This document shows, in pieces, positions 5,475-25,237 of a stretch of DNA of 46,353 nucleotides. Numbering within the stretch: position 1 is the stretch's first letter; each line of letters begins with the position of its first letter. The translations under genes were made by a program, and so were the position numbers. The stretch spans positions 1 through 46,353 of the forward strand of contig NZ_JAMXRU010000014.1 of assembly GCF_024124745.1 (NCBI RefSeq), in the 5' to 3' direction. This stretch comes from Aeromicrobium sp. CnD17-E. GTDB taxonomy: Bacteria > Actinomycetota > Actinomycetes > Propionibacteriales > Nocardioidaceae. Below the pieces are notes generated by a model that was not told where the DNA came from, searched no databases, and was given only the letters and a program-made list of their open reading frames with translations.

Positions 5475-5868
5475 ACGAGGCGGCCGGGCGGCCGCGGCGG
5501 GCTCCGGCCCGTCGAGGAAAGTCCGGACTCCGCAGAGCACGGTGGTGGCCAACAGCCACCCACGGCGACGTGCGGGACAGTGCCACAGAGAACAGACCGC
5601 CAGCGGCCCTGCGACCTTCGGGTCACGGGGTGCGGGTAAGGGTGAAACGGTGAGGTAAGAGCTCACCAGCGACGTCGGCGACGGCGTCGGCTCGGTAAAC
5701 CCCACCGGGAGCAAGACCAAGAGGGCGCTCCGGCGCCTGCGCTGACGGGCTGCTCGTCCGATGTCAGCGGGTAGGTCGCTCGAGGCGCGCAGCAATGCGT
5801 GACCCAGATGGATGGTCGCCCCCCGGCCCTCGGGCCGGGGACAGAATCCGGCTTACAGGCCGCCTCGT
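5475..5868 (+). ncRNA. rnpB: RNase P RNA (bacterial class A)
   Basis: The catalytic RNA of ribonuclease P, which matures tRNA 5' ends. All landmark segments are present in order: the 5' P1 strand ACGAGGCGGCC, GAGGAAAGTCCGGACTCC (P3-P4), ACAGAGAACAGACCGCC, GGTAAGGGTGAAACGGTGAG with GTAAGAGCTCACCAG, GGTAAACCCCACCGGGAGCA, and the 3' GGCTTACAGGCCGCCTCGT that closes P1. Length is about 394 bases, normal for actinobacterial type A. A TAGACT -10 box at 5460-5465 places the transcription start near 5472-5475. The ACT gene diverges from it. Ends are set by the P1 helix and may be off by a few bases. Confidence 0.97.
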
Positions 5869-5889
5869 TCCCTCTCGGTGTCCATCGCC

Positions 5890-10790: not shown

Positions 10791-12128
10791 ATGGGTAAGC
10801 AGGAAGACTTCGTCCTCCGGGCGCTCGAGGAGCGTGACGTCCGGTTCGTGCGGCTCTGGTTCACCGACGTGCTCGGCTCGCTGAAGTCGGTCGCCATCGC
10901 CCCGGCGGAGCTGGAGGGAGCCTTCAGCGAGGGCATCGGCTTCGACGGGTCGGCGATCCAGGGCTTCGCCCGCGTGCACGAGGCCGACATGCTGCTCAAG
11001 CCCGATCCGTCGACCTTCCAGATCCTGCCGTGGCGGGGCGAGGCGCCCGCGACGGCCCGCATGTTCTGCGACATCGCGATGCCCGACGGCTCGCCGTCGT
11101 TCGCCGACCCGCGGCACGTGCTGAAGCGGTCGCTGCAGAAGGCCGCCGAGGCCGGCTTCACCTTCTACACCCACCCGGAGATCGAGTTCTACGTCTTCCG
11201 GGGCAAGCCTGACGTCGGCGGCCGGCCGGTGCCCGTCGACGACTCCGGCTACTTCGACCACACCGCGCAGGGCGGCGGCCAGGACTTCCGTCGCGAGGTC
11301 ATCACGATGCTCGAGAACATGGGCATCAGCGTCGAGTTCAGCCACCACGAGGGCGGGCCGGGACAGCAGGAGATCGACCTGCGCTACGCCGACGCCCTCT
11401 CCACCGCCGACAACGTGATGACCTTCCGCACGGTCGTGCGCGAGGTCGCGCTCAGCCAGGGCAAGTGGGCCTCGTTCATGCCCAAGCCGTTCACCGAGCA
11501 CCCCGGCTCCGCGATGCACACGCACCTGTCGCTGTTCGAGGGCGACGAGAACGCCTTCTACGAGGCGGGCGCCGAGTACCAGCTGAGCGCCACCGGCCGC
11601 TCCTTCATCGCGGGCGTCCTCGAGCACACGCCGGAGATCACCGCCGTGACGAACCAGTGGGTCAACTCCTACAAGCGGCTGGCGAGCGGCTACGAGGCCC
11701 CCAACTACCTCAGCTGGGGCCACAACAACCGCTCCGCCCTCGTGCGGGTGCCGATGTACAAGCCGCACAAGAGCGGCTCCGCGCGCGTCGAGCACCGCGG
11801 CATCGACGCCGGCTGCAACCCCTACCTCACCTACGCGCTCGTCCTCGCCGCCGGGCTGAAGGGCATCGAGAACGGCTCGACCCTGCCGCCCGAGACCGAG
11901 GACAACGTCTGGTCGCTCACCGACCGGGAGCGCAAGACGATGGGTCTGACGCCCATGCCGCGCAACCTCGACGAGGCGATCCGCGAGATGGAGAGCAGCG
12001 AGCTCGTCGCCGAGACGCTGGGCGAGCACGTCTTCGACTTCTTCCTGCGCAACAAGCGTCAGGAGTGGGACGCCTACCGCTCCCAGGTGACCCAGTTCGA
12101 GATCGACCGCCTCCTGCCCGTCCTCTGA
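10791..12128 (+). CDS. glnA2: Glutamine synthetase-like protein GlnA2
   Basis: A 445-residue member of the glutamine synthetase family, matching the Rv2222c type in length and in lying next to glnE. It carries the beta-grasp N-domain (RDVRFVRLWFTDVLGSLKSV, GFDGSAIQGF) and the ATP/metal domain (EIEFYVFRG, ANYLSWGHNNRSALVRVP, GCNPYLTYALVLAAGLKGIE). The residue matching the adenylylation tyrosine of GlnA1 is Trp374 (DNVWSLT), so GlnE cannot modify it there. Streptomyces GlnA2 is reported as a gamma-glutamylpolyamine synthetase; whether this one makes glutamine or another gamma-glutamyl product cannot be read from sequence. No ribosome site; GAGACT lies six bases upstream. Confidence 0.92.
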   Translation: MGKQEDFVLRALEERDVRFVRLWFTDVLGSLKSVAIAPAELEGAFSEGIGFDGSAIQGFARVHEADMLLKPDPSTFQILPWRGEAPATARMFCDIAMPDGSPSFADPRHVLKRSLQKAAEAGFTFYTHPEIEFYVFRGKPDVGGRPVPVDDSGYFDHTAQGGGQDFRREVITMLENMGISVEFSHHEGGPGQQEIDLRYADALSTADNVMTFRTVVREVALSQGKWASFMPKPFTEHPGSAMHTHLSLFEGDENAFYEAGAEYQLSATGRSFIAGVLEHTPEITAVTNQWVNSYKRLASGYEAPNYLSWGHNNRSALVRVPMYKPHKSGSARVEHRGIDAGCNPYLTYALVLAAGLKGIENGSTLPPETEDNVWSLTDRERKTMGLTPMPRNLDEAIREMESSELVAETLGEHVFDFFLRNKRQEWDAYRSQVTQFEIDRLLPVL

Positions 12129-12149
12129 CGGGCGGGGCGGCCGGCTGTG

Positions 12150-12830
12150 CGCCGGTCGTGACCGTGCTGGTGCGCTGGCGCGGGGGATCTTGACCTTGCT
12201 GGTGCGCTGCCTGCGGGGTCTTGTCGTGGTGGTGCGCTGCCTCGGCTGGCGCTGGGGGTGGTCTCCGAAAGGGCCTCGACCGGGCGGCGGGGTGCGGCGG
12301 CGCCTCCGGTTCTCGGGCTGTGGCCTTCGGTGGACGCAATCTTCTGCGTTCGTGCGTGGGGGGCCAAGCCTTCTGCGTCTGTTACGGGATCCCGTCGTCA
12401 ATGCAGAAGCGTTCGGCCTCCAGCGCACGAAGGAAGAATCGTGGGTGTCCTTGAGGGTGGGGCGGGCAGTGCTTCTCCCTTCTCGTGGCACGGTCCACGA
12501 GAAGGGAGAAGCGCTGCCATGTCTGGCCCCCTGAGCGGTTGATCCACCACCCTTCGAGCGCTGGGAAGGGTGGCAGATCCACCGCCGAGGGCGATTCGGT
12601 GGCAGATCCACCGCTGAGGGGGTGAGAACGCAGAATCGTGCGTGCACTCCGAGCGCGACCCGCGGCCCGAGACCCCGGACCAGCGCGCTCGCCGGCCGCC
12701 CGGTCGAGGCCTTTCGGAGCGCACGACGACTCGAAGCCGCACCAGCGCAGCCCCACCCGAGCGAGAAGCCGCGCCGACGCAGCCCCACCCGAGCGAGAAC
12801 CACACCGACGCAGCCGCAGGTCGGACCCCG
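12150..12830. repeat. Long non-coding palindromic element, copy A
   Basis: The 752 bases between glnA2 and glnE hold no credible gene; several frames are open only because of GC content. They form an ordered structure: GGTGCGCTG-headed units at 12169, 12201 and 12231; the box CTCCGAAAGGGCCTCGACCG at 12263-12282; hairpin H1 (CTTCTGC/GCAGAAG, 12370-12409, enclosing ACGGGATCCCGT); hairpin H2 (12471-12512); hairpin H3 (12547-12573); a direct repeat of GGTGGCAGATCCACCGC at about 12570 and 12600; the same box inverted at 12701-12719; and inverted 32-bp units at 12747 and 12779. A second copy lies at 24393-25141. Boundaries are approximate. The glnE promoter begins just after it. Confidence 0.85.
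12471..12512 (+). repeat. Hairpin H2 of element A, perfect 18-bp stem
   Basis: GCTTCTCCCTTCTCGTGG (12471-12488) pairs without mismatch with 12495-12512 around the six-base loop CACGGT. The counterpart in element B (24739-24778) keeps the same stem core with one mismatch and a different loop. It is the strongest hairpin of this copy. Confidence 0.9.
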
Positions 12831-12880
12831 ACGCCCCCGGTGACCACCGACCTTCCACGCGCCCCCGGTAGCCTGCGAGC

Positions 12881-15811
12881 GTGCCCACCGAGTCTCCCGA
12901 GCTGGCCCTGGCGCGTCGCGGGTTCCGCGACGGGGCGGCTGCCGCGGCCCACCTCGCCCGCCTCGACGGCATCGACGACGCACTCGTGGAGCAGGTGGCG
13001 TCCGTCGCCAGCCCCGACACCGCGCTCGCGTCGCTGGTGGCGATCGCGGAGACGTGGGGGGTCGAGCGGCTGCTCGCGACCCTGCGGGGAGATGCGGAGC
13101 TGCGGCAGCGACTGCTCATCGTCCTCGGCACCAGCGAGGCGCTCGGCGACTTCCTCGCCCGGCACCCGCAGCACGTCGAGGACCTCGCCGCCGACCGGCT
13201 GTCGCCCGTCCCGCTCGACCTCGACGTCATGCGCCAGCAGCTCGGCGATGCCGACGACGCCGACGCCCTGCGCGTCGCCTACCGCCGCAAGCTGCTGCAC
13301 GTCGCCGCCCGCGACCTGACCGCGCTGACCAGCTTCGAGGAGTCGTCGGCCGAGCTCGCCGACCTCGCCATGGCGACCCTGGGCGCCGCGCTCGACCTGG
13401 CGCGCCGCGACGAGCCTGACGCCGACTGCGTGCGGCTGGCGGTGATGGCGATGGGCAAGACCGGCGGCCGCGAGCTGAACTACGTCAGCGACGTCGACGT
13501 GATCTTCGTGCACGAGCCCGTCGAGGGCGCCGACGAGCAGGCCGCAGGACGGATCGCCGCCCGTCTCGCGTCGGCCATGATGCGCCTCTGCTCCGACCAC
13601 ACCCGCGAGGGCACCATCTGGGAGGTCGACGCGAACCTGAGACCCGAGGGGACCCAGGGCCCGCTGAGCCGCACGCTGCGCAGCCACGTCGCCTACTACG
13701 ACCGGTGGGCGTCGACGTGGGAGTTCCAGGCGCTGCTGAAGGCACGGTTCGCGGCAGGCGACGCCGAGCTCGGCCAGGCCTACCTCGACGCGCTGTCGCC
13801 GAAGGTCTGGGACGCCAGCACCCGGGAGAACTTCGTGCGCGACGTCCGCGCGATGCGCACGCGCGTCATCGAGAACATCCCGTCGCAGCAGCGCGACCGG
13901 CAGCTGAAGCTCGGCTCGGGCGGTCTGCGCGACGTCGAGTTCTCGGTGCAGCTGCTGCAGCTCGTGCACGGTCGCGGCGACGCGTCGCTGCGCAGCCCGA
14001 CGACCCTGGAGGCGCTGCGCAAGCTCACCGAGGGTGGCTACGTCGGCCGGCGCGACGGCGCCGCCCTGGAGGACGCCTACGAGTTCCTGCGCACCCTGGA
14101 GCACCGCATCCAGCTCTACCGGCTGCGCCGCAACCACGTCGTGCCCGACGACGAGGAGGACCTGCGACGTCTCGGCCGTTCCATGGGCTACCGGGCGAAC
14201 CCGGCCGAGGGTCTGGTCAAGGACTGGCAGGCCCACAAGCGCCTCGTGCGACGCCTGCACGAGAAGCTCTTCTACCAACCGCTCCTGGAGGCGGTCACCT
14301 CCCTGCCCGACGAGGGTCTGCGGCTCACGCCCGAGGCGGCGCAGGCCCGGCTCATGGCGCTCGGCTTCAAGGACCCGAAGGGTGCCCTCGCGCACATCCA
14401 GGCCCTCACGTCGGGCGTGTCCCGACGCGCCGCGATCCAGCGCTCGCTGCTGCCGGCCATGCTGCAGTGGTTCGCGGAGTCGCCCGCGCCCGACGTCGGC
14501 CTGCTCGCGTTCCGGCGGATCAGCGAGTCGCTGGGGGAGTCGCACTGGTACCTGCGCAAGCTCCGCGACGAGGGCGAGGGGGCGGAGCAGCTCGCGGCGG
14601 TCGTCGGCTCGAGCCGCTACGTGTCGGACCTGGTCCAGCGTGCGCCCGACGCCGTCGCGCTGCTGGGCGACGACGCCGAGCTGGTGCCGCGCGACGCGGA
14701 ACGTCTGCAGGGGGAGATGCAGCTCGCCGCGCGGCGACACACCCGCCCCGACCAGGCGATCAAGGCTGTCCGCCGCGTGCGACGTCGGGAGCTGTCGCGC
14801 ATCGGCATCGCCGACGTCCTGGGCCGGCTCGACATCGACGAGGTCGGCACCGCGCTGTCCGACCTCACGGAGGCGACGCTCGGCGCCGCGCTCACCGCCT
14901 CGATCGGAGCCGTCGCCCGCCAGCGGGAGGAGGCCGGCAAGGAGCCCTTCCCGACGCGGATGGCCGTGGTCCTCATGGGCCGTCTCGGCGGCCGCGAGTC
15001 GGGCTACGGGTCCGACGCCGACGTCATGTTCGTGCACGAGCCACTGCCCGGCGCCGACGACGGGGAGGCGGCGGCTGCCGCGACGGCCGTCGCGACGTCG
15101 CTGCGCACCACCCTCGGCGCGCCCGGCGACGACCCGGCCCTCGAGGTCGACGCCGAGCTGCGGCCCGACGGCCGCAACGGGCCGCTGGTCCGCTCCTTCG
15201 CCGCCTACGCGTCCTACTACGAGAAGTACTCGGCGGTGTGGGAGTCCCAGGCCCTGCTGCGTGCTCGCGCCAGCGTCGGGGACCCCGACCTGTGCGCCCG
15301 GTTCGAGGCACTCGTCGACCCGCTGCGCTGGCCCGACGGCGGCGTCTCGGACGCGCAGGTCCGCGAGATCCGGCGCATCAAGGCCCGCGTCGAGGCCGAG
15401 CGCCTCCCGCGGGGCGCCAACCCGAAGACGCACCTCAAGCTCGGTCGCGGCGGCATCGCCGACGTCGAGTGGACCGTGCAGCTCCTGCAGCTGCAGCACG
15501 CCCACGCGGTTCCCGGACTGCGCACGACGTCGACCTGCGGCGCCCTCGCAGCCGCTGCCGACGCCGGGCTGGTGACCGCGGACGACGCCGAGGTGCTGCT
15601 GCACGCGTGGCGGCTGGTGAGCCGCATCCGCAACGCCGTCGTGCTCATGCGCGGCAAGCCGGCGGAGTCGATGGTGGAGCAGAGCGAGGAACGCGCTGGC
15701 GTCGCGCACCTGCTGGGGTACGGTCAGCAGCACAGCGAACGCATGGTCGACGACTACCTGCGTGCCACCCGGCACGCCAGACAGGTCGTCGAACGCATCT
15801 TCTGGGAGTGA
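12881..15811 (+). CDS. glnE: Glutamine synthetase adenylyltransferase / adenylyl-removing enzyme
   Basis: A 976-residue bifunctional enzyme controlling GlnA1 by attaching or removing AMP on its tyrosine. Two nucleotidyltransferase domains are visible: GKTGGRELNYVSDVDVIF from residue 192 (removal half) and GRLGGRESGYGSDADVMF from residue 700 (adenylylation half), each with the Asp-x-Asp metal pair and a following conserved block (EVDANLRPEG; EVDAELRPDG). Each is followed by KLGSGGLRDVEF or KLGRGGIADVEW. Length is normal for actinobacteria. The GTG start is preceded by TAGCCT (12869-12874) with a six-base spacer, so transcription probably starts on the start codon, separate from glnA2. GlnA1, the substrate, is encoded 26 kb away on the other strand. 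Confidence 0.96.
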   Translation: MPTESPELALARRGFRDGAAAAAHLARLDGIDDALVEQVASVASPDTALASLVAIAETWGVERLLATLRGDAELRQRLLIVLGTSEALGDFLARHPQHVEDLAADRLSPVPLDLDVMRQQLGDADDADALRVAYRRKLLHVAARDLTALTSFEESSAELADLAMATLGAALDLARRDEPDADCVRLAVMAMGKTGGRELNYVSDVDVIFVHEPVEGADEQAAGRIAARLASAMMRLCSDHTREGTIWEVDANLRPEGTQGPLSRTLRSHVAYYDRWASTWEFQALLKARFAAGDAELGQAYLDALSPKVWDASTRENFVRDVRAMRTRVIENIPSQQRDRQLKLGSGGLRDVEFSVQLLQLVHGRGDASLRSPTTLEALRKLTEGGYVGRRDGAALEDAYEFLRTLEHRIQLYRLRRNHVVPDDEEDLRRLGRSMGYRANPAEGLVKDWQAHKRLVRRLHEKLFYQPLLEAVTSLPDEGLRLTPEAAQARLMALGFKDPKGALAHIQALTSGVSRRAAIQRSLLPAMLQWFAESPAPDVGLLAFRRISESLGESHWYLRKLRDEGEGAEQLAAVVGSSRYVSDLVQRAPDAVALLGDDAELVPRDAERLQGEMQLAARRHTRPDQAIKAVRRVRRRELSRIGIADVLGRLDIDEVGTALSDLTEATLGAALTASIGAVARQREEAGKEPFPTRMAVVLMGRLGGRESGYGSDADVMFVHEPLPGADDGEAAAAATAVATSLRTTLGAPGDDPALEVDAELRPDGRNGPLVRSFAAYASYYEKYSAVWESQALLRARASVGDPDLCARFEALVDPLRWPDGGVSDAQVREIRRIKARVEAERLPRGANPKTHLKLGRGGIADVEWTVQLLQLQHAHAVPGLRTTSTCGALAAAADAGLVTADDAEVLLHAWRLVSRIRNAVVLMRGKPAESMVEQSEERAGVAHLLGYGQQHSERMVDDYLRATRHARQVVERIFWE

Positions 15812-24377: not shown

Positions 24378-24738
24378 CGTGCTGACGTTGGTGGTGCGCT
24401 GACTGCGGTCGGTCTCGTCGTGCTGGTGCGCTGTCTGCGGGGGTCGTGACCTTGCTGGTGCGCTGTCTGCGGGGGTCGTGACCTTGCTGGTGCGCCGTCT
24501 CGGCCTTCGCTGAGGGTGATCTCCGAAAGGGGCCTCGACCGGGTGGCTGGCGACGGCGCCGGTCTGGGGTCTCGGGCTGTGGGTTGGGTGCTGGGGTGGA
24601 CGCAGGATTCTGTGTACGTGCGTCAAGGGCCCAAGGATTCTGCGTCGGCGACGGGAGCCCGTCGTGAACGCAGAAGCGATCGGCCTCGAACGCTCGAATG
24701 AAGCATCGTGGGTGCCCTTGGCGTTGGGGTGACGCGAG

Positions 24739-24778
24739 ATTCTCCCTTCTCGTGGACCGTTCCACGCGAAGGGAGAAT
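24739..24778 (+). repeat. Hairpin H2 of element B
   Basis: ATTCTCCCTTCTCGTGG pairs with CCACGCGAAGGGAGAAT around ACCGTT, a 17-bp stem with one mismatch. It is the same hairpin as 12471-12512 with a different outer base pair and loop. Confidence 0.88.
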
Positions 24779-24798
24779 CCCTGCCGCGCCGCGCCCGC

Positions 24799-24852
24799 CA
24801 TCGGTGAATCTGCAACCGCAGGAGCGCTCCTGCGGTTGCAGATCCACCGATG
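24799..24852. repeat. 54-bp palindrome H3 of element B
   Basis: The inner 36 bases (24808-24843) are a perfect palindrome without spacer, centred on GGAGC|GCTCC; CATCGGTG and CACCGATG extend it outward past one mismatched a/c pair. Element A has a shorter, differently worded hairpin at the same place. Confidence 0.9.
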
Positions 24853-25237
24853 AGGACGCGCCGACCAAGAACGGTGGCGCCAGAACGCGGAAACGAAGAA
24901 TCGTGCCTCACCCACAGGACCAAGCCAGGCCCCGAGACCCGAGACCAGCCCCAGGCCCGCTGCCGGTCGAGGCCCTTTCGGAGGCCAACCCCAACGGAGG
25001 CCGAGGCAGCGCACCAGCAAGCACAAGCCCCCTGCGGCAGCGCACCAACAGGACGAGATCCCCCTGCGGCAGCGCACCAGCAGGTCGAGCTTCCCCTGCG
25101 GCAGCGGACCAGCAGATCGAGACCCCCGCAGGCGCCGCACCACCAAGGTCCCGACCCCGCAGCCGGCGCAGCAGCAGATGACTTCCCGCCAGTGCTAGCG
25201 TGGACGCACTACCACGCAATCCGATGGAGGGGTCCCG

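Follow-up and report, generated by a model that had tools for sequence, protein, structure and literature searches.

Shared sites and reshuffled core sequence in a family of dispersed palindromic elements of Aeromicrobium and its relatives

A 46,353-nucleotide stretch of Aeromicrobium sp. CnD17-E (contig NZ_JAMXRU010000014.1, positions 1 to 46,353; hereafter the window) has two intergenic gaps, 12150-12830 and 24393-25141, which a sequence-only reading had described as holding the same hairpins, boxes and repeats, and as possibly a mobile non-coding element, a structured RNA or a chromosome-organising site. What is such an element, and how do its copies come to resemble one another?

Architecture and abundance of the element

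Sequence comparison confirmed that both gaps contain the same parts in the same order (Table 1). The stretch between hairpins H1 and H2, earlier estimated to match at about four of five bases, is equal at 48 of 63 positions (12406-12468 against copy 2), near that estimate. The right arm had been described as the left repeats inverted, which holds for copy 2, with B-type units on both sides, but not for copy 1, in which B-type units on the left are faced on the right by a second unit type, A (GCGCAGCCCCACCCGAGCGAGAAGCC...), with the same 31-32-bp period. Likewise, inverted arms do exist in each element, but "giant palindrome" is a loose term for them, the long arms being ~71-84% complementary. 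The DNA fold of the core is far more stable than that of shuffled sequences (z = -9.5 for copy 1 and -12.9 for copy 2; of 100 shuffles made in each case, 0 folded equally well), and given these scores and the dozens of copies in the genome, the structure shared by the two copies is far beyond chance.

Table 1. Features of the two element copies in the window.
Feature	Position	Strand	Remarks
Copy 1, whole element	12150..12830	+	gap earlier called glnA2-glnE; box counts give ~45 related copies in the genome
Copy 1, left arm	12165..12255	+	B-type units at 12165, 12197, 12227 (steps 32, 30)
Copy 1, left box	12263..12287	+	CTCCGAAAGGGCCTCGACCGGGCGG
Copy 1, inner left arms	12312..12350	+	CTCGGGCTGTGG; GGACGCAA..TCTGCGTT; pairing with 12627-12671
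Copy 1, hairpin H1	~12370..12410	+	CGGGATCCCG at centre; H1-type alone at L250, L257
Copy 1, conserved H1-H2 stretch	12411..12464	+	
Copy 1, hairpin H2	12465..12518	+	24-bp arms, 96% complementary; part with clear covariation
Copy 1, hairpin H3	12529..12591	+	paired GGTGGATCTGCCACC-like units; 27-bp arms, 81%
Copy 1, additional H3 half	12598-12612		
Copy 1, inner right arms	12627..12671	+	inverted partners of 12312-12350
Copy 1, right (inverted) box	~12693..12719	-	ends by eye
Copy 1, right arm	12733..12826	-	A-type units, read inward; 31-32-bp period (spacing 32, 31)
Copy 2, whole element	24383..25150	+	after the gene earlier called tetR
Copy 2, left arm	24389..24497	+	B-type units, 32-bp steps (24421, 24453, 24485; 24389 by eye)
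Copy 2, left box	~24521..24545	+	by eye
Copy 2, hairpin H1	~24636..24677	+	
Copy 2, hairpin H2	~24738..24779	+	arms 95% complementary
Copy 2, hairpin H3	24799..24852	+	27-bp arms, 96%
Copy 2, right (inverted) box	~24963..24983	-	
Copy 2, right arm	24998..25127	-	inverted B-type units, spacing 31, 32, 32; inverted repeats reach ~25150

Members of the family are ~0.6-0.8 kb long, intergenic, and occupy most of the gap in which they lie. From the outside inward they consist of inward-reading arms of 31-32-bp units, a box of 25 bp with its inverted counterpart, a pair of inner inverted segments, and then H1, the conserved stretch, H2 and H3. Arm motifs are spaced by 32 bp in 121 cases and by 31 bp in 81, the next commonest spacing being 14 bp (26 cases), and the strongest autocorrelation is at lag 32 in all four carrier genomes. 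Arms have 0-6 recognisable units (counted in three genomes) and taper without fixed ends, so that defined terminal inverted repeats are absent.

Among 49 genomes of the genus, box matches (at most three mismatches, two boxes per element) number 89 in the genome of the window (G000), 102 in the closest species (G005), 82 in a more distant species (G019) and 103 in a lake MAG (G056), which corresponds to ~45 copies in G000 and ~41-51 in the three others; the other 45 genomes have 0-3 matches, the level of a reversed-pattern control. Copy 1 matches 183 segments of its own genome on dozens of contigs, the long ones at 73-87% identity. The sequence-only reading had allowed for the case that only two copies exist; with ~45 in the genome, a plain two-copy duplication is ruled out. 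A sequence search of 39 genomes (G000 included, G056 outside the set) found some match in 16, strong only in G000, G005 and G019, the weaker matches in G011, G021 and G014 being to the H3 part. In a scan of named genomes, the matches listed included at least 60 loci, all in one lake MAG, Propionibacteriales bacterium, which is G056. Carriage by phages was considered and rejected, as the 11 matches on viral contigs are each a single unpartnered box and are taken as chance. No account of the element appeared among the literature matches listed.

Occupancy and setting of the sites

The 30 G000 loci compared across species form a non-random sample, picked as those that match copy 1 best. All 30 of these sites are occupied in G005: at 20, both flanks match those of a copy among the 26 from G005, and the other 10 hold element sequence in G005, in some cases shortened and in one with extra internal DNA carrying an insertion-sequence end. 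In the reverse direction, 24 of the 26 G005 sites are occupied in G000, L062 being without an element and L064, which adjoins an insertion sequence, being ambiguous. The element is present at the L062 site in G056, which suggests loss in G000 rather than gain. G056 is occupied at all 12 sites tested, and the sites are largely fixed among G000, G005 and G056. The 13 sites tested in G019 comprise three with a clear element, one with a lone H1-type module, five without an element match and four that are ambiguous; the element-free spacers look too diverged for a base-by-base comparison of target-site duplication.

These occupancies bear directly on the possibility of a still-jumping, non-autonomous MITE-like transposon, new insertions of which at favoured sites would replace like with like and so mimic concerted evolution. 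Such a transposon would fit the high copy number, inverted ends and intergenic sites, the restriction to four of 49 genomes, the five sites of 13 without an element match in G019, the occupation of L062 in G005 and its element-free state in G000, and the existence of subfamilies, including a G056-type copy that lies inverted at its site in G005 (L071). It is nonetheless unlikely, given that all 30 sampled G000 sites are filled in G005, that L062 is occupied in G056, that arms of variable unit number lack fixed ends, that no PF01797 transposase (the only transposase family searched) occurs in the 49 genomes, and that the near-identity of two G000 copies, L005 and L018, drops within the element while outer arms retain orthology (both described below). 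Mobility, as the sequence-only reading proposed it, finds no support for the recent past, since the sampled sites are common to sister species; at some earlier time the family must nevertheless have dispersed.

Two individual sites differ in structure. Copies L071 of G005 and L012 of G000 occupy one site in opposite orientation, and L071 is of the subfamily typical of G056, at a distance of 0.108 from L117. At the site of window copy 2, the G005 element (L091, G005:C1:2337000-2339300) is interrupted by extra DNA (gap of 1765 bp); the insert carries a 151-bp gene end found at three places in G005 that by eye resembles the end of an IS30-type transposase gene.

The gaps that hold the 30 G000 loci are convergent in 12 cases, co-directional in 12 and divergent in six; the convergent:divergent ratio of 12:6 compares with 5:11 in the other gaps of the window, as counted from the gene calls of this analysis, a weak tilt (Fisher p = 0.08). 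Co-directional neighbours gave no clear orientation preference (14 ++ and 10 --, among 56 loci of two genomes). Matches to H2 in G005 extend from 534 to 2,992 kb, and the boxes listed within ~0.5 Mb of its dnaA are few (6, 3193, 3234 and 3384 kb); in G019, with dnaA at 466 kb, several of the boxes listed are close by. By eye, the listed box positions of G005 and G019 formed no consistent ori-ter pattern.

Protein-bound chromosome sites (supercoil or domain insulators, or condensin- or centromere-like sites) maintained by selection, with sequence exchange as a side effect, would be in keeping with the preservation of 31-32-bp phasing in the arms of four species despite changed unit sequence, the similar copy number per genome (~41-51), the retention of sites, and the larger number of convergent than divergent gaps. 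This explanation appears improbable in view of the 45 related genomes with only background matches, the five element-free sites in G019, the inconsistent position relative to dnaA among the boxes listed, and the many copies that are internally deleted.

Divergence of orthologous cores and exchange between sites

Core distances were computed for 103 of 125 unique oriented cores (selected by length and score cuts, partly deleted copies excluded). The cores of orthologous and other copies differ by 0.200 versus 0.211 between G000 and G005 (22 pairs, flanks 97.0% identical; the ortholog is nearest, of 26 copies, in three of the 22), 0.211 versus 0.222 between G005 and G056 (15 pairs, ortholog nearest in none), 0.229 versus 0.239 between G000 and G056 (16 pairs, none), 0.325 versus 0.341 between G000 and G019 (seven pairs, one), 0.339 versus 0.341 between G005 and G019 (five pairs, two), and 0.324 versus 0.335 between G019 and G056 (four pairs, none). 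Orthologous cores thus differ by 20-23% where flanking DNA is 97% (G005) or ~95% (G056) identical. In each of the six comparisons orthologs lie a little nearer to each other than other pairs do, and so a trace of orthology remains. Outward from the box, the identity of G000-G005 orthologs rises from 0.85 through 0.88 and 0.91 to 0.96 beyond 150 bp on the left, and runs 0.89, 0.88, 0.90 and 0.96 on the right, whereas that of non-orthologous pairs (60 sampled) falls from 0.86 to ~0.75.

Part of this loss of orthology is due to ordinary mutation, because the gaps holding the two window elements differ from G005 by 20.4% and 17.9%, near the 16.0% (1079 of 6739) of four-fold synonymous sites in the window, other gaps differing by 6.4%. 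Mutation alone could account for most of the level of divergence between G000 and G005, but not for the concerted pattern or the exchange tracts described next. Hypermutation of the element was rejected as unnecessary, synonymous divergence being already 16%.

Within-genome core distances are 0.143 in G056 and 0.169 in G019, the latter against ~0.34 from G019 to the others, and 20 alignment columns have different majorities (each >70%) in G056 and G000. The nearest neighbour of a core is in its own genome for 27 of 27 copies in G056, 22 of 23 in G019, 16 of 27 in G000 and 14 of 26 in G005. G056 was sampled by taking the 30 loci closest to a single H2 variant; the eight G056 copies in the set that were obtained by flank gave a within-genome distance of 0.141, in agreement with 0.143. 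Recent homogenisation is weak in G000 and G005, as similarity within these genomes (distances of 0.218 and 0.199) does not exceed that between them (0.211) and their best windows are nearly equal; the loss of orthology between these two looks more like the reshuffling of a common pool. The concerted pattern appears between the single-contig genomes G005 and G019 as well, where there are only five shared pairs, and so is not solely an artefact of assembly.

In every carrier genome, linkage between variable core sites (one G019 outlier excluded) weakens with distance: r2 is 0.23-0.28 for sites less than 10 bp apart but 0.04-0.09 for sites separated by more than 100 bp. Rho between linkage and distance lies between -0.12 and -0.20, lower than in any of 300 permutations per genome, and all four combinations occur at 80-88% of variable-site pairs. 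Two copies at different G000 sites, L005 and L018, have the same base at 257 of 258 positions in the core segment that begins at the box and ends with H2. Past H2, L018 is without H3 and the rest is equal at 95 of 105 positions, and the left arms show many differences. Both sites hold an element in G005. This is the sole large recent tract found. G000 is a draft of 219 contigs, in which a chimeric join is possible, and L005 and L018 keep ~90% identity outside the tract. The G056 assembly, with ~40 contigs, is a draft as well.

Sampled sites are shared between species while the core is reshuffled or homogenised between sites, its variable positions recombine freely, and orthology within it is nearly lost. 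The shared sites, the spread of variants between sites in two species, the decay of linkage and the L005/L018 tract point to gene conversion between copies. A single old burst followed by mutation only, with saturation rather than exchange hiding orthology, would suit the G000-G005 distances taken alone, if the burst came just before their split, and the slightly greater closeness of orthologs in every comparison; it is scarcely credible, given that genome-specific variants at vertically shared sites, the linkage decay and the near-identity of L005 and L018 need exchange between sites, and that the concerted pattern in G056 and G019 contradicts it.

The explanation that we consider probable is a dispersed non-coding repeat family, a mosaic of modules at fixed sites, with sequence exchanged between sites by hairpin-provoked gene conversion. 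The family would have spread in an ancestor of the four related species and, in G000, G005 and G056, would now mostly stay put, with RecA-type gene conversion moving core sequence between sites. The hairpin core, as a cruciform or as a hairpin exposed by replication, is probably cut or stalled and then repaired from another copy; conversion that begins there would account for the near-loss of orthology in the core and its recovery in the outer arms. More speculatively, the spacing of arm units, one to every three helical turns, might place protein sites on a single side of the helix, with a function at the ends of genes like that of BIMEs, for instance in insulation or in the handling of supercoils. 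A bolder proposal, to which little credence is given, is a selfish system driven by conversion, in which the ~50 fixed sites would form one interbreeding sequence population within the chromosome, each copy, with its break-prone hairpin core and phased protein sites, persisting unmoved by being broken and copied from or onto its sisters.

Exchange of sequence between copies, the main property of the family, was unforeseen by the sequence-only reading. With sites that are fixed, genomes of sister species for comparison and a tract of exchange, gene conversion among dispersed bacterial palindromes becomes measurable here. A further consequence is that nearly 1% of a carrier genome (3.6 Mb, with ~45-50 copies of 0.6-0.7 kb) scarcely reflects the phylogeny of the species and is easily mis-assembled.

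RNA tests, modules and likeness to known repeats

A coding function was rejected because core lengths shift by single bases (417, 418, 419, 420...), which leaves no shared frame. No Rfam family was matched at gathering score by copy 1, where eight sub-threshold matches are hairpin look-alikes, mostly to microRNA models. The earlier statement that no gene or known RNA family explains the element therefore stands. Elsewhere in the window, a bacterial RNase P RNA of class A lies at 5476-5871 on the + strand (270.8 bits).

Covariation, a check proposed with that statement, was assessed in 80 copies on hand-defined Watson-Crick stems, whole-core RNAalifold having been set aside by the author's choice as it picked G-U-rich pairs, and the signal is clear only in H2. 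In that stem, seven of 24 pairs occur as at least two Watson-Crick types, with 122 double-change cells and a paired fraction of 0.878 against at most 0.820 in shuffles; the cells count copies rather than events, and most of those in H2 reflect a few pairs fixed in G056. The H1, inner and box stems pair no better than shuffles, and H3 gave a weak signal. Mismatched stem cells include 229 G-T and 286 A-C, without the excess of G-T over A-C expected under RNA constraint. Hairpin-templated repair yields covariation without selection, and the covariation of H2 may have this origin; under the preferred explanation of hairpin-provoked conversion, constraint would act on DNA and not on RNA.

A family of structured non-coding RNAs, as the sequence-only reading had suggested, would agree with the very stable fold (computed with DNA parameters) and with the covarying H2, yet it is disfavoured, and in our judgement very unlikely, by the lack of a G-T excess, the shuffle-level pairing of the box, inner and H1 stems, the absence of a clear orientation preference and of an Rfam match at gathering score, and the lack of any promoter-like site at copy 1 or of an intrinsic terminator (GC stem and T run) in 12050-12950.

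The hairpins also occur apart from the large element, by eye: as lone H1-type elements at L250 (G000) and L257 (G019), as a lone H2 beside a short remnant that resembles H1 at L254 (G000), and as H3 units alone at L259 and L260 (G011). Since H1, H2 and H3 are found singly, smaller palindromes make up the large element, which is thus a mosaic of them. L254, L257, L259 and L260 begin, by eye, directly 3' of a stop codon. The H3 core is present in 19 of 49 genomes, namely three of the four carriers (with none in G019) and 16 others, nine of which have at least five matches (31 in G011, 14 in G053 and 12 in G040) and seven of which have one to three, close to the control level of 0-1. Four G019 copies that were inspected have a second H2-like hairpin in place of H3. 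Apart from one stray match, the H1/inner motif was seen in the four carriers only.

In being intergenic, palindromic, mosaic and present in tens of copies, with modules that also occur singly and that lie directly 3' of stop codons in the examples inspected, the family resembles BIME, REP and REPIN sequences, the title of a 1988 review of which (Higgins et al.) asked whether REPs evolve by gene conversion. It differs in its arrays of 31-32-bp arm units, its pair of boxes, the exchange between sites visible in its sequence, and its length of ~0.6-0.8 kb, compared with 20-40 bp for REPs (PMC3733652). The RAYT family (PF01797) was found in none of the 49 genomes of the genus, while a control search was positive in five of 14 genomes, and the element is therefore not filed as a REP or REPIN, though it works like a large BIME. 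MITEs are similarly non-coding and multi-copy with inverted ends, but the element is without fixed termini, empty sites among the 30 sampled in the sister genome, or a partner transposase of the one family searched (PF01797). Ribosomal RNA operons are concertedly evolving repeats at fixed sites, homogenised within a genome; the element, unlike them, is non-coding, palindromic, shorter and far more diverse. The STAR elements of staphylococci are likewise dispersed intergenic repeats that vary in repeat number; in a 2012 study, the STAR authors state that a dominant spacer variant, expected from conversion between loci, was not identified (PMC3532100).

Two further observations concern the surroundings of single modules. 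The end of an ndk-like gene, the same gene by eye, has a lone H2 in G000 (L253) and a lone H1-type element in G019 (L256), as though one gene end attracted different modules. A second dispersed motif, GGTAGGTGACGCACC or near variants with its inverse, was seen by eye in G019 (L115, L105 and L255), in gaps that hold the large element in G000 or beside a lone H1 element.
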